Shown here piece by piece: positions 22,372 to 27,824 of a DNA stretch of 64,000 nt. Numbering within the stretch: position 1 is the first letter of the stretch; each line of letters opens with the position of its first letter. The DNA comes from Calothrix anomala FACHB-343 (GTDB taxonomy: Bacteria; Cyanobacteriota; Cyanobacteriia; Cyanobacteriales; Nostocaceae): contig NZ_JACJQG010000009.1 in NCBI RefSeq assembly GCF_014696435.1, forward strand, positions 111,589-175,588, given 5' to 3'. The position numbers and the translations under genes are program-made. The notes below the pieces were generated by a model that saw only the letters and a list, made by a program, of their open reading frames with translations, did not search any database and had not been told where the DNA came from.

Positions 22372-23508
22372 TTACGATGAACTACTAGCTGTTAAAAAAT
22401 CAAGAATAGTTTGCGCTAAGGCTTTTGATGCTAAATATGGTACGCCATTACCAATAGTTTTAAACATATTTGTGAGTGACATATTCTCTGGAAGGGCAAA
22501 ATTTGCAGGTAAAGATTGAATGGCTAAAGCTTCAGCTACAGAAATTCTTCTAACCTTGTAGGGATGTAAATGTACTTCATTATTGCCATAACAAGCAGTT
22601 GGTGAATAGCGCCATCTGTGTAGGCGTTTAAAAGACTTTTTAGAATCATCTCCCTCAGCAACTGTAGCAAATTTTGTTATCCCCCCTCTAGGTTGAAAAT
22701 AATGTTTAGCATTGGGATGTTGCAATACATCATTTTTTCTAAACCAGTATTCAACTGTAAGTTCTTGAGGAATATTCTCAGGACAATTAATTATAGAGTT
22801 TTCTTGAAATGGTTCGCACTTTCGCCAAGGATAGGCAAAAACTTTCTCTTGAGGATATAAAATGTAATTCTTCCAAAGAAATACATCTGTAAGTGTTACA
22901 TTATCATTAATTATTTTTTTAATTAAGCTATTTCTGAAGCCAATTAAAATAATTCTTTCCCTATCCTGTGGTACACCATATTCAATAGCATTAATTAAGC
23001 GTTCCGTTAATATATAACCTGCGTTTTGTAATTTTAATTTTAAAGAGTCAAAAAATAAACGATGTTTTTTCGTGCGCCATAAACCTTTAACATTCTCAAA
23101 TAAAAAGAAATCTGGTAAATGACGACAAATTAATTCAATATAAGCAGCAGAAAGTTTACCATTATCTCCCAAATAACCTTTATTTTTACCGCCAATTGAA
23201 AAATCTGGACAAGGAGGCCCGCCAATAAAGCCAATAAGATTATAAGATTTACGGCAATCTTGGACTAATTCTCTCAGTCGTTTAGCTGGTAATTCTTCTA
23301 AAAGTTTGCTTACATCTGCATCTTCCCCTTGATAATATCCATATTCAGGTAACGGTAGATTGAGAATTTGCCTAGAATAGCGGTATGCGGCGATAAATGG
23401 GGCAAATATTTCATTGACATAAACAATATTAAAACCGCTATTTTCAAAACCTAAATCGAGAAAACCTGAACCAGAAAAGAAAGAGAATATACAAGGCTGA
23501 AGGCTCAT
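22372..23508 (-). CDS. DNA (cytosine-5) methyltransferase
   Basis: From MSLQPCIFSFFSGSG (378 residues) the order of motifs is that of C5 methyltransferases: motif I FFSGSGFLDLGFE (about 10-22) binding AdoMet, motif IV GGPPCPDFS with catalytic Cys near 100, motif VI LFENVKGLW (about 136), motif VIII QDRERIILIG (about 181), and a late FKTIGNGVPYLASKA (motif X). The variable target-recognition region lies between VIII and IX. No restriction enzyme gene is next to it, so it looks like a solitary enzyme. The N-terminal SGFLDLGFE...VYVNEIFAPF pattern is reminiscent of the M.XorII/CGATCG group, which would make it a HIP1-site methylase; this is a guess to be tested. Confidence 0.93.
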   Translation of the reverse strand: MSLQPCIFSFFSGSGFLDLGFENSGFNIVYVNEIFAPFIAAYRYSRQILNLPLPEYGYYQGEDADVSKLLEELPAKRLRELVQDCRKSYNLIGFIGGPPCPDFSIGGKNKGYLGDNGKLSAAYIELICRHLPDFFLFENVKGLWRTKKHRLFFDSLKLKLQNAGYILTERLINAIEYGVPQDRERIILIGFRNSLIKKIINDNVTLTDVFLWKNYILYPQEKVFAYPWRKCEPFQENSIINCPENIPQELTVEYWFRKNDVLQHPNAKHYFQPRGGITKFATVAEGDDSKKSFKRLHRWRYSPTACYGNNEVHLHPYKVRRISVAEALAIQSLPANFALPENMSLTNMFKTIGNGVPYLASKALAQTILDFLTASSSS

Positions 23509-23674
23509 TTTATGAATACATAATTCAGAAATAAATAAATTTTTATTTAATATCATGAATAATATATTTTATTTAATAACATAACATACAAATAATGTCA
23601 TATGCTTAAAGCATATATATAAATTATTAGCAGACTATGGTTTGATTAATATATAGCTAAATAAATCTATAATC

Positions 23675-23810
23675 CAATACAGTTCAGTTAGCGTTGAAAA
23701 CATTAAACTTTGTAGGTTGGGTTGAGGAACGAAACCCAACATTTCCGGGGTTTTGTTGGGTTTCACTTCGTTCAACCCAACCTACGATGATCCTTAACTG
23801 AACCGTATTG
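23675..23810. mobile_element. MITE, 136 bp, with a perfect 10-bp target duplication
   Basis: The termini are CAATACAGTTCAGTTA and, reversed, CAATACGGTTCAGTTA. The 10 bases ATCTATAATC occur immediately outside both ends (23665-23674 and 23811-23820), a clean target-site duplication. The interior is a long hairpin built on TAGGTTGGGTTGA / TCAACCCAACCTA. No coding capacity. It was presumably mobilised by a transposase encoded elsewhere. Confidence 0.92.
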
Positions 23811-24406: not shown

Positions 24407-25846
24407 TTATCCGACAGCCTTCTCAACAGCAACTTCCGGTAACAAACGCTTGACACCTTGCTTAACAAAACCTTGCAGAAAAGCCATCTGCTGATTTTGC
24501 TGGAAGACATTTTGTAAAGTTTGCCGCAATTTCTCTAAATTCAAGTTATTACCAGAATCTAAAGCTATTTCTTGTTGTTGGAAATACTCTACTAAACTTA
24601 ACCCAGCTACTCTGGTAAGATAAGCTGCGCTGACTCCCTGTACTACACCACCAGCGACAAAGGTAACGGCGTTACTTTTGAGTACAGTACTTACAGCTTT
24701 TGTGGAAAGTTCGACTAAACCCAGTTTCAGCATTAAACTTCCCATTGTTCCAGCTACGGTTTGCGCCTGTTCCAAAGAGAATTTCTGCTGATAAATATTA
24801 CCCAAATCCATTACCATTTGGGCATTAATCGCCGCAGTGGCTAAAACATCAAGTGCGGGAACTGGGTTAGCAAAAGCAGCAGCCGCAGCTATCCATTGAT
24901 ATTGTTCTATAGTTGGGGTAGCGCGATCGCGTCTGACTCCATTTACCCAGTTTTTCGCCTCAGCTTTGAGTAACTTAGCTTTTCTCCATGTCGTCGCCCA
25001 AACTAACTTCTGAGCTTGCTGAGTCACAATTTTGCTGAGTTGCTGTGTTAACTGCTGGATATCTGCTGCTGGTTGTTCTAACCATTCTTGTACAGAACCG
25101 TCACTCTCATGCTTCCTGACTTTGATAGCAAGGGGAGACACAGCTGTTGCAACTAAATTTCCTTGTGTCCGTTGTTGTAATGACAGCAAAATACTAGCAC
25201 GTTCATCTGGTAAATACTGGTCTTGCTTGTTGAAAACCAACATTACAGGTTGATTGGCTGCTTTTAGCTGCTGTAAAGTCTGAAATTCCGAATCTGTTAA
25301 GTCACCGTTGGTGAGAAACAGAACAAAATCAGATGTTTCTACTTCTGTGACAACATCGGTTTCTGAATTATCGCTAGCTTTGATAAATAATGGTGCTGTC
25401 TCGTAGAAGCTGAATTTCTGCTTGATTGTTGCTTGCCAATTAGACTTTAAAACTTCTATCAAGGTGGTTTTACCCACCGATTTACCACCAGTAACAGCTA
25501 GTTTAATTTCTTGGCGATCTAAATCTAAGAGTAATTGGTTAACTTGTTCTCGTAGGTAGCCTATAGCTGGATGATTTTCTGATTCTTGTACCAGTTGGTT
25601 AATTACGACTTCAGCTTGAGCGATCGCATTTTCTACATCGGCTCTTTCTACAAGCTTAATATCAAATTGCTCCACCCTAGCTTGCGGGCGATTTTTTTGG
25701 AATAACCACAATCCCCCACCAATAGCTAAAGCACTCAATAAACCAAACTCGCTAACTTGCACTATAGAATCGTGCCAACTATCTAACATCCACAGAGAAA
25801 AGGACAATCCCAATCCTCCCACTAAAATTGGTCGTTGTAACTTCAC
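24407..25846 (-). CDS. GTPase-domain membrane-associated protein (DUF697-type)
   Basis: The product (479 residues from a GTG at 25846) starts VKLQRPILVGGLGLSFSLWM with one or two membrane segments (about 6-50), then a GTPase domain with P-loop VTGGKSVGKTTLIEVL (about 133), and NKQD (VFNKQDQYLP) as G4. The C-terminal third is Ala-rich and hydrophobic like DUF697 (AAAAAFANPVPALDVLATAA). The GTG is chosen because GGAGAG precedes it at 8 nt; earlier starts would overlap the upstream homing endonuclease gene. Members are widespread in cyanobacteria but of unclear role. Confidence 0.8.
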   Translation of the reverse strand: MKLQRPILVGGLGLSFSLWMLDSWHDSIVQVSEFGLLSALAIGGGLWLFQKNRPQARVEQFDIKLVERADVENAIAQAEVVINQLVQESENHPAIGYLREQVNQLLLDLDRQEIKLAVTGGKSVGKTTLIEVLKSNWQATIKQKFSFYETAPLFIKASDNSETDVVTEVETSDFVLFLTNGDLTDSEFQTLQQLKAANQPVMLVFNKQDQYLPDERASILLSLQQRTQGNLVATAVSPLAIKVRKHESDGSVQEWLEQPAADIQQLTQQLSKIVTQQAQKLVWATTWRKAKLLKAEAKNWVNGVRRDRATPTIEQYQWIAAAAAFANPVPALDVLATAAINAQMVMDLGNIYQQKFSLEQAQTVAGTMGSLMLKLGLVELSTKAVSTVLKSNAVTFVAGGVVQGVSAAYLTRVAGLSLVEYFQQQEIALDSGNNLNLEKLRQTLQNVFQQNQQMAFLQGFVKQGVKRLLPEVAVEKAVG

Positions 25847-25914
25847 AACCGTTACTCTCCGAGCTTTTTGGATGGTTTCTACTCCAGAATAGATCAAAAC
25901 CCTGTTTGTCCGAG

Positions 25915-26373
25915 TCACACAGGCGAACAAACACAATTTTCTTTACTTAGTGCTTGTAAAATTAATTCCCAAGCATCGCGATATTTTGCAGAACGAGGTT
26001 TACGCTGTCGTTTTTCAGTTTCCACAAGATGAATTTCGCTACCATAGCCGATGAAGACATCGATTGGGAAGATATAAAACAGGTCAAGTTGTTCTATATA
26101 TATTAGGGCAAAATCAAAATCGGTTGGCTTATATGCTTCTCTTAGCATTAGCCGACGATTTGTTTTGGTACGGCGATTATCTACAACATAATTACCAGAA
26201 GGCTGATCGAACCAAGCATATTTGACTTGAATTTTGATTACAGTTCCTTCTACATCAAATGCTAAATCGTAAGGTAGCCTGTCGCCTATAGGTTTTAAAA
26301 CTCCCCAACCCCGCTTTAAGGCGTGAAGAACAGCAGCTTGTTCGGCAATATCTCCTTTGAGCTTTGTGTCCAT
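25915..26373 (-). CDS. Homing endonuclease, I-Ssp6803I-like (PD-(D/E)XK)
   Basis: The 152-residue product (from MDTKLKGDIAEQ) has the small PD-(D/E)XK layout of I-Ssp6803I, the enzyme of the Synechocystis tRNA-fMet intron: Glu in KGDIAEQAAV, Asp in GDRLPYDLAF, Gln-x-Lys in VIKIQVKYAWF, then NRRTKTNRR, DFDFALIYIE, IFPIDVF and a basic RQRKPRSAKYRDAWELI end. Length and motif order agree well with that family. It starts only 77 nt after the 3' end of a tRNA-fMet gene containing a group I intron, downstream of a terminator hairpin, whereas the known relative is encoded inside the intron. It probably cuts intronless tRNA-fMet genes. Confidence 0.88.
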   Translation of the reverse strand: MDTKLKGDIAEQAAVLHALKRGWGVLKPIGDRLPYDLAFDVEGTVIKIQVKYAWFDQPSGNYVVDNRRTKTNRRLMLREAYKPTDFDFALIYIEQLDLFYIFPIDVFIGYGSEIHLVETEKRQRKPRSAKYRDAWELILQALSKENCVCSPV

Positions 26374-26396
26374 GTACTCGTAACGCACAATAACTA

Positions 26397-26430
26397 AAAC
26401 AAAACCCCGCAAACAATAAAGCTTGCAGGG
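26397..26430 (-). terminator. Rho-independent terminator of the tRNA-fMet gene
   Basis: On the minus strand CCCTGCAA and TTGCGGGG pair (one G-T) around a 9-nt loop, followed by TTTT. It separates the split tRNA gene from the homing endonuclease gene, so the latter probably needs its own promoter or read-through. Confidence 0.75.
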
Positions 26431-26449
26431 TCTTATTTTGTTGTTAATT

Positions 26450-26770
26450 TGGTGGCGGGAAGTGGATTTGAACCACTGACCTTCGGGTTATGCTTACCAT
26501 CTACAGCTTTCGCTGCCCAGATTTACTGGTTTGTGGTCTGGACTGTCCCTTCACCCTCGTCTTTATCGTTAGGGTGCCTGCCTTCCAGTCTCTACACCTT
26601 CTCTATTTCTAGAGCTTGGTTCGGGATTACCACGCTAATGGCTTCCCCGAGTTTGACAGGTAAACGCACGTAAGTTTCTTTACGTACCGCCCAATGCAAA
26701 ATCAACTGATAAGCGTTTAGTTAACTTTGCTTGTTGAGCCCGACGAGCTACCAGGCTGCTCTATCCCGCG
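26450..26770 (-). tRNA. Initiator tRNA-fMet (CAU) interrupted by a group I intron
   Basis: The 5' exon (26770 to 26737, CGCGGGATAGAGCAGCCTGG...) ends at U33, and the 3' exon (26492 to 26450) starts with the CAU anticodon and ends with an encoded CCA. Joined, they fold as a full cloverleaf with initiator traits: an unpaired C1 opposite position 72 and three G-C pairs (GGG/CCC) closing the anticodon stem. The splice position is uncertain by up to 2 nt because CA is repeated at both junctions; group I rules (exon ends in U, intron ends in G) favour the split between U33 and C34. Confidence 0.93.
26493..26736 (-). ncRNA. Group I intron in tRNA-fMet, 244 nt
   Basis: Reading the minus strand, the intron carries the conserved core GGTGTAGAGACTGGAAGG, then CACCCTAACGATAAAGACGA, then GGACAGTCC and CAGCGAAAGCTG near the 3' end, closely paralleling the core of the cyanobacterial tRNA-Leu(UAA) group IC3 intron as I remember it. 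It ends in G and is too short to encode a protein. It should self-splice using guanosine. Its likely mobility enzyme lies outside, at 25915-26373. Confidence 0.9.
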
Positions 26771-26818: not shown

Positions 26819-27766
26819 CTACAAAAGCGATAATTCTCCGACAACTTCTAAACGCTTGTATTTTCCTAAGATCATAAACTTCTCAGATAAGCTTTCGGCA
26901 ACGCTGGGAGTAATCCAGCCCATTTGTTGCAGTAAGTGAATGGCAACTGCGTATTTTGCCCGCTTGCTTCCATCCATAACTTTAATTGCTAATCCCATGC
27001 CTTCCCCTAATCGGCCAATGCACTGTACTCCTTCTGCACCAGCTTTACTTACCAATTCCCCAGGAGTTAAGCGCATGAGTTCGGTATCAAATTCCCCATC
27101 TCCCGCTACCATTGTTGGGTGATGAGTCATAGCTCTGACAATCCGCTCCATATCTAAAGTTTTCCCGGAGGCTAGCAAGGCATAAAGCGAACCCATCTGA
27201 CCCAGTTGCATCAAGTAAGTGGGTGCGCCACAATCATCATGAACGCCAATAAATTCCTCAGATGGCATTCGCAGCAATTCTGCTACCTTGCTGAGAATTA
27301 GCTGTTGGACTGGGTGTTTGCGTTCTAGGTAATTATTTAAAGGCCAATGGCGTTGCTGACATACGGCTAACATTCCCGCATGTTTCCCAGAGCAATTGTA
27401 TTCTAGAGGACTCCGCTTACCTTCAGGAACCGGACATTGGAGGGTGCTGGGGTCAAGATCGGCTCGCCACAGGATATTAAATACCTGTCTGACTTGCTCT
27501 ATGCTACCTTTATGGGAACTAGTGATGATAGCTAAGTCGCGATCGCTGAGATCGTAACGTTCTAAAGTACCTGTAGATGTGACTGCTAGGGCTTGAAATG
27601 GTTTTAGTGCTGAACGGACAAATGTAGCCGTTTCCGCATTCCCAGCAACGGATAAAACCCGTCCCCGTTCGTCGCAGACAACAGCTTGGACTATGTGCCT
27701 CGATTCAATAATTCCTTCCCGGAGCAACCTGACTTCCAAGGCTGCGGCTTGAGTTCGCTTTCCCAT
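26819..27766 (-). CDS. L-asparaginase II family protein
   Basis: The product matches the COG4448 asparaginase group (as in Rhizobium): EVRLLREGIIESRHIVQAVV at the start, SALKPFQALAV, TSSHKGSIEQV, the YNCSGKHAGMLA motif with conserved Ser/Lys, and HDDCGAPTYL. It hydrolyses asparagine to aspartate and ammonia. ATG 27766 (MGKRTQAAALEVR) or 27772 are both possible. It follows rsfS and the CGLD27 gene in the same direction, an order I recall from other cyanobacteria. The spacer to its upstream neighbour holds two GACGCG palindromes and heptamer repeats. Confidence 0.9.
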   Translation of the reverse strand: MGKRTQAAALEVRLLREGIIESRHIVQAVVCDERGRVLSVAGNAETATFVRSALKPFQALAVTSTGTLERYDLSDRDLAIITSSHKGSIEQVRQVFNILWRADLDPSTLQCPVPEGKRSPLEYNCSGKHAGMLAVCQQRHWPLNNYLERKHPVQQLILSKVAELLRMPSEEFIGVHDDCGAPTYLMQLGQMGSLYALLASGKTLDMERIVRAMTHHPTMVAGDGEFDTELMRLTPGELVSKAGAEGVQCIGRLGEGMGLAIKVMDGSKRAKYAVAIHLLQQMGWITPSVAESLSEKFMILGKYKRLEVVGELSLL

Positions 27767-27824
27767 TGTCATGGGTTAAAATTTATCTCTTATTGTTATT
27801 TTTTATGATTTGTCAGTTGTCAAA

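Follow-up and report, generated by a model that had tools for sequence, protein, structure and literature searches.

Organization of the tRNA-fMet locus

The window, by which we mean the whole 64,000-nt stretch of Calothrix anomala FACHB-343 DNA that was analysed, carries on its minus strand and in this order a gene which we take to be asparaginase-like, a split tRNA-fMet gene, a terminator-like hairpin, a nuclease gene and one more gene (Table 1). Joining the exons (26770–26737 and 26492–26450) gave a 77-nt sequence that ARAGORN called as tRNA-Met(CAT), and the same program made no tRNA call on the split gene at 26450–26770 (minus strand). The C1-C72 mismatch that marks initiator tRNAs is present in the split gene. 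Group I introns follow a rule by which a U closes the 5' exon and a G closes the intron, and the boundaries of the intervening sequence agree with it. Rfam model RF00028 (Intron_gpI) matched 26523–26713 of the minus strand with 55.6 bits (E 1.7e-12), above the curated cut-off of 50, so that the covariance model bears out an initial annotation, made from the letters of the DNA, in which the tRNA-fMet gene is split by a 244-nt group I intron. No uninterrupted tRNA-fMet copy was found in this genome at up to 2 mismatches.

The same annotation had placed the nuclease gene after a terminator, and the fold of the sequence between tRNA and nuclease (26396–26449; -26.2 kcal/mol, z -7.2) is indeed a strong hairpin. 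Its statement that the gene begins outside the tRNA also stands, although the distance needs a small correction, from the 77 nt claimed to 76 nt counted past the CCA. Elsewhere in the window, a C-5 cytosine DNA methylase gene (22372–23556, minus strand; PF00145, E 2.5e-47) adjoins a tRNA-Arg(CCG) at 23710–23788.

Table 1. Features of the split tRNA-fMet locus, in window coordinates.
Feature	Coordinates	Strand	Evidence or remark
Upstream neighbour, presumably asparaginase-like; native flank	26819..27772	(-)	Common to empty sites and 31/80 named loci
tRNA-fMet 5' exon, end ...GGGCU	26737..26770	(-)	Sequence; joined exons = tRNA-Met(CAT)
ORF-less group I intron, 244 nt	26493..26736	(-)	Rfam RF00028 match; 5 genomes of the genus lack it at this very site
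tRNA-fMet 3' exon, CCA encoded	26450..26492	(-)	Sequence; joined-exon tRNA call
Terminator-like hairpin and T-run	26396..26439	(-)	Fold; alignment (empty-site genomes have the hairpin too)
Nuclease cassette	25900..26391	(-)	Missing from empty sites L151, L152, L154; ends shifted 3–5 nt in L153, L155
Free-standing I-Ssp6803I-type PD-(D/E)XK homing nuclease, 152 aa (P0001)	25915..26373	(-)	PF11645; 2OST_A
Putative decayed copy of intron core (nuclease 3' end and a few bases beyond; stop inside)	25900..25956	(-)	9.1 bits; codon phase
Downstream neighbour, native flank	24407..25846	(-)	Start codon picked by alignment with empty sites

The nuclease and its relatives

The window nuclease matched PF11645 over residues 1–137 of 152 (E 3.4e-54) and its only PDB match was 2OST_A, I-Ssp6803I (residues 3–142, E 2.2e-67), while an NCBIfam search with the same protein returned no match. 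Residues E11, D36, Q49 and K51, presumably the catalytic residues of an I-Ssp6803I-type nuclease, were invariant across 17 aligned relatives. The proposed kinship with I-Ssp6803I therefore holds, and assignment to a different PD-(D/E)XK family is not what the alignment gave. Comparison of the coordinates of gene and intron likewise confirmed that an enzyme of this type is here coded entirely outside the intron; an ORF-less intron with an adjoining free-standing nuclease is the layout of a collaborative homing pair.

One further PF11645 gene was found in the same genome (L002, 897–1553, minus strand, contig C47), which encodes a distant protein (34% identity; family match with E 1.1e-20) and lies directly behind an intact, intronless tRNA-Arg(TCT). 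This gene is perhaps the homing nuclease of another tRNA.

Distribution of layouts and co-occurrence with the intron

A scan of named species, with one genome per species, yielded 131 relatives of the nuclease, of which the best 80 were kept. Among these best 80 of 131, 40 were located in the intron (39, and one seen by its 5' side only at a contig end), 38 lay downstream of the tRNA, one was upstream (L127) and one was unplaced (L117). With the exception of the unplaced gene, all (79/80) were in, or at most 2.2 kb from, an intron-bearing tRNA-fMet. The in-intron form occurred in many phyla among the best 80 of 131, and the downstream form was found in cyanobacteria and Bacteroidota (L118, L121, L125, L134, L136), mostly at a tRNA-to-gene distance of about 100–170 nt and in some loci at 0.8–2.1 kb. 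The layout in the window can thus no longer be read as a one-off local case, since 38 of the best 80 of 131 relatives share it. A group I intron was confirmed by Rfam in 14 of 20 sampled loci and also in L118, L119, L127, L132 and L048.

Several individual loci depart from these common arrangements. In L127 (766–1580) a third gene order places the nuclease between the asparaginase-like gene and the intron-bearing tRNA-fMet, and in L075 (2076–3944) an IS200/IS605-type transposase pair lies between tRNA-fMet and nuclease. No tRNA-fMet halves were found near the nuclease in L117 (3200–4000), where an integrase-like reading frame, recognized by eye, and a stretch resembling a tRNA 3' end precede the gene, as if a mobile element had split the tRNA from the nuclease. 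The L048 intron retains at 1247–1300 the first codons of a deleted nuclease ORF. Intact tRNA-Met genes adjoin L090, L092, L096 and L108; judged by eye, the one beside L090 looks like an elongator tRNA-Met, a judgement that concerns L090 alone of the four.

When 388 genomes of the order were searched with the protein, 27 gave a match at 1e-10, and the states around these matches were an ORF in the intron (L018, L019, L020, L021 and L024, within introns of about 650 nt), a gene downstream of an ORF-less intron, and fragments. Across the 388 genomes, an uninterrupted tRNA-fMet junction was detected in 304 and an intron 3' junction in 63. The intron junction was present, and an uninterrupted tRNA-fMet absent, in every one of the 23 genomes whose nuclease match spanned 110 aa or more, in comparison to 40 with the intron junction and 304 with an uninterrupted copy among the other 365 (Fisher p 1e-20 for 23/23 versus 40/365, uncorrected for the kinship of these genomes, which are not independent). 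Five of the 23 nuclease genes are damaged, by an early or internal stop in G344 and G279 and by loss of the N-terminus in G035, G036 and G376. Genomes with C-terminal fragments only have either an uninterrupted tRNA (G077, G321, G045) or the intron (G125). An intact nuclease without the intron was found in none of the 388 genomes, and 39 of the 63 intron genomes had no nuclease match; introns outlive nucleases. The two tRNA-fMet forms, with and without the intron, coexisted in a single genome (G361), in which no nuclease was detected at E 0.01. A search for plasmid vehicles of the nuclease gave no match.

Related nucleases were also identified in four viral contigs (L170–L173; 54–57% identity), where the gene is part of a tRNA array and immediately precedes an uninterrupted tRNA-Met(CAT); no group I intron was found in these loci. 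The anticodon stem is altered from the usual target in L170 and L172. The L173 tRNA, next to a nuclease of 54% identity, is likewise uninterrupted and retains GGGCTCATAACCC unchanged. Unless the specificity of this nuclease has shifted, L173 argues against a simple rule under which an intact nuclease and its target are never found together. Annotated phages contributed 49 records; none reached 60% identity or covered 80% of the query.

Empty sites, flanking genes and selection

Within the genus, intron and nuclease were present or absent together in all nine genomes, with both in four (the present genome, G388, G389 and G393) and neither in five (G390, G391, G392, G359 and G381). When the window was aligned with the five empty sites, the intron and a cassette of about 492 nt directly behind the terminator each stood out as a clean insertion. 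Comparison of the locus in relatives with and without the intron, which the initial annotation had proposed, gave paired presence and absence within the genus as well as the association across the order.

In one lineage the comparison also recovered a putative conversion footprint. Carriers G389 and G393 and the lacking genomes G390, G391 and G359 are 96–98% alike in the upstream coding sequence, 95–98% in the 60 nt before the tRNA, 98–100% in the right flank and 95–97% in the next gene, whereas similarity in the 48-nt spacer that separates nuclease from tRNA drops to 71–73%. The spacers of G390, G391 and G359 are identical to one another and share 88% with a second lacking lineage, and those of G389 and G393 are 85% alike, differing from each other more than the flanks do. 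The odd spacer is that of the carriers, as if intron, spacer and nuclease had arrived together. For the pair L059–L060, nuclease dS was 0.28 in comparison to 0.72 and 0.51 in the flanks and the introns were 96.7% identical, which suggests transfer within the genus.

In the 28 loci where both flanking genes were present, the distances of nuclease and intron tracked those of the flanks (r 0.83 and 0.71), and once the flanks were accounted for no sign of co-transfer of the two remained (partial r -0.27); the history of these loci therefore looks mostly vertical. This result could be interpreted as a worn-out pair, in which intron and nuclease are remnant neighbours of an old homing system that are inherited vertically and are no longer mobile. 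The broken copies in G077, G321, G045, G125, G344, G279, G035, G036 and G376, together with the many introns that lack a nuclease, would also be expected on that account. However, the median dN/dS of the nuclease was 0.085, near the 0.065 of the asparaginase-like flank, with 0.143 for the other flank (26 loci, 311 usable pairs), and the paired presence and absence in the genus, the foreign spacer between native flanks and the low nuclease dS of L059–L060 all argue against a pair that has ceased to move. We consider the worn-out pair unlikely.

Probable ribozyme core sequence at the end of the nuclease gene

The C-termini of in-intron nucleases follow the pattern QWAA..ET..R.PVKFGEA..VIPSQA, in which PVKFGEA corresponds to the core stretch CCTGTCAAATTCGGGGAAGCC. 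Introns without a nuclease have this stretch, as does the Rfam consensus, and it thus belongs to the intron. Free-standing genes carry tails such as QAVSKENCVCSPVSFGEAGF (L060) and QKVFGKETEEQQPLKFEEFLGDIIPIQAQSDGN (L011), and the end of L125 (GWAAAVK) resembles the ...WAA of its in-intron neighbours in the tree. In the window the closing part of the nuclease gene, together with the first few bases after it, resembles core helices that we take to be P3-P4.

A DNA profile of the core stretch was built from 25 introns (16 distinct) of genomes without a nuclease match and was scored on the 100 nt after the nuclease domain, with 4,800 dinucleotide shuffles as the null. The 72 free-standing rows, for which the domain end was required and among which fragments L026, L027 and L028 were included, reduced to 48 distinct tails. 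Of these, 21 scored above the 99.9% shuffle level (5.0 bits), where related tails are not independent, and 17 exceeded all 4,800 shuffles (highest 8.6 bits), including the window tail with 9.1 bits. The other 27 tails fell below the 99.9% level and several genes had no tail at all. A protein profile of 19 in-intron tails placed 18 of 36 free-standing tails above its 99.9% level and 10 above every shuffle. The codon phase was the same in all 20 readable free-standing matches as in 33 of 36 in-intron ORFs. Among 192 control coding windows only three scored above 0 with the core profile: L028 (70.0, the intron itself), L006 (3.4) and L062 (2.9). No trace of a tRNA 5' half or of an intron leader was found upstream of free-standing genes in 66 regions.

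Since many free-standing genes close with what looks like a worn, in-frame version of a core stretch that belongs to the intron and that in-intron ORFs enter, the simplest account suggested by these sequences is that such genes came out of the intron. We infer at least one such exit, in cyanobacteria, a move opposite in direction to the usual story, and we claim it from the tails and not from trees. A remaining alternative explanation of the tails is gene conversion, with an in-intron copy as the donor and a free-standing gene as the recipient.

Phylogenetic analysis, in which L018 (internal stop) was dropped, as were rows without an assigned layout in the unextended tree, placed a large clade of downstream genes from cyanobacteria (36 rows, 97/83) among in-intron rows and L125 among in-intron Bacteroidota-type rows (99/86), with the viral rows adjoining Arcicella-type rows. 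A single clade for all free-standing genes was not rejected by AU tests (p 0.41 for 87 rows; p 0.067 for the 92 rows to which the viral ones belong), nor was a single cyanobacterial clade (p 0.30) or a single clade of Bacteroidota and viral genes (p 0.14). The number of exits is accordingly not claimed, as these tests, on an unrooted tree, reject no single clade; tree-based polarity was dropped for the same reason and because L002, on a branch of length about 10, was useless as a root.

The usual direction would have a free-standing nuclease and an ORF-less intron converge on one site, with later entry of the gene into the intron, and the window would then represent a stage before entry. This is the route published for phage systems in the available text of PMC3984707, and the four viral contigs with free-standing relatives beside an uninterrupted tRNA-Met, as well as an unrooted tree in which one free-standing clade is not rejected, are in keeping with it. 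A gene that had never resided in the intron should not possess the core stretch, whereas many free-standing tails look like the core and keep the in-intron codon phase. The initial annotation's stage in intron-endonuclease association, if understood as a free gene on its way into the intron, is at odds with these tails, and we regard the usual direction as a distinctly poor explanation of the window. The tails disfavour it for cyanobacteria, and it may hold for the first origin of the family.

A probable two-piece homing unit and its relation to known systems

An unrelated role of the nuclease, for example in defence or DNA repair, with an incidental place near tRNA-fMet, might be entertained from distant PF11645 proteins elsewhere, such as L002 beside its intact tRNA-Arg and phage proteins of less than 37% identity, but it is very hard to reconcile with the linkage of 79 of the best 80 of 131 relatives to an intron-bearing tRNA-fMet in many phyla and three gene orders, with the count of 0 in 388 genomes for an intact nuclease without the intron, and with the lack of any intact gene seen far from tRNA-fMet among those best 80 of 131.

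Our preferred reading, to which we assign a probability of roughly 0.7, is that the locus is a split collaborative homing unit resident in cells, whose layout was made by exit of the nuclease from the intron. The homing unit would consist of two pieces, the tRNA-fMet intron and, about 200 nt beyond its end, the nuclease gene. By analogy with I-Ssp6803I, the nuclease would cut the anticodon region of uninterrupted tRNA-fMet genes, and the intron would shield the carrier's only tRNA-fMet from cutting and then splice itself out. Repair from the carrier would, as the usual route, copy intron, spacer and nuclease in one conversion tract, of which a putative footprint was seen in one lineage. The ORF would once have been inside the intron, where its 3' end crept into the core. 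A copy would then have been placed directly after the tRNA, and this free-standing gene would have kept a piece of the core as its tail; the intron would have become, or stayed, ORF-less. The co-occurrence, empty sites and footprint also fit the earlier suggestion that intronless alleles are the target of an enzyme acting in trans and that the intron itself stays minimal. The linkage to intron-bearing tRNA-fMet genes, the low dN/dS, the tails and the lack of a nuclease match in G361, the one genome with both tRNA forms, likewise count in favour of the preferred reading. Against it weigh the missing nuclease-intron link in the 28 loci, the 27 tails below the shuffle level, the confinement of the footprint to one lineage whose two carriers have divergent spacers, the 66 upstream regions free of any tRNA or leader trace, and the unchanged GGGCTCATAACCC in L173.

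A broader proposal, which we put forward tentatively and at slightly less than even odds, is that split homing units were made by exit independently in the ancestry of the cyanobacterial genes and in Bacteroidota (L125), with the phage arrays as a third, intronless form, so that the arrangement would be a recurrent stage of a cycle and not a step to entry. A nuclease gene that has crept into the core would leave the intron, keeping part of the ribozyme as a protein tail, and would go on homing in trans with the intron left behind.

The tRNA-fMet intron of Synechocystis PCC 6803 is described in the available text of PMC1995217 as 655 nt long with a 150-codon ORF, I-Ssp6803I being intron-encoded, and in that of PMC3073962 the ORF overlaps P1/P2 by 61 nt. 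The window shares with this system the nuclease family and the tRNA gene but differs in layout, as the ORF is inside the intron in Synechocystis and downstream of the tRNA, beside an ORF-less intron, in the window. The available parts of PMC5733544 and PMC3610870 mention the tRNA-fMet intron and make no mention of a neighbouring nuclease.

The term collaborative homing is used, in the accessible text of PMC6083498, for cyanophage S-PM2, where F-CphI adjoins the psbA intron; in the portions available of this paper, PMC3984707 and PMC10448857, F-CphI cuts the intronless gene and the intron prevents self-cutting, and PMC3984707 also reviews collaborative homing and the entry hypothesis. An ORF-less intron beside a free-standing nuclease is common to S-PM2 and the window. 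In contrast to S-PM2, the window pair is on a cellular chromosome, has a PD-(D/E)XK nuclease and would have a tRNA target; moreover, relatives of its nuclease are found inside the same intron and its tail points to exit. Among the open-licence papers found to use the term, no title names a pair in a bacterial chromosome.

The overlap of intron ORFs with the ribozyme core is known as core creep (PMC3073962, in the text available), and the in-intron relatives behave in this manner, as in L098, whose end QWAACEETHLRTPVKFGEAVCEVIPSQAPMDI runs into the core. Free-standing genes differ in that they retain the extension in decayed form, as in L060, which would date a period of intron residence.

Collaborative homing has been described in phages, and here, at one and the same tRNA site, a single family has forms inside the intron, downstream and upstream of the tRNA, and on phages. 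The putative two-piece homing unit is widespread in bacterial chromosomes, with a nuclease gene that appears to bear the trace of its former residence in a ribozyme. Empty sites in the same genus, combined with a molecular trace of direction, make the origin of split units testable in culturable cyanobacteria and Bacteroidota, and the locus would offer an instance in which part of a ribozyme core has become the tail of a protein.
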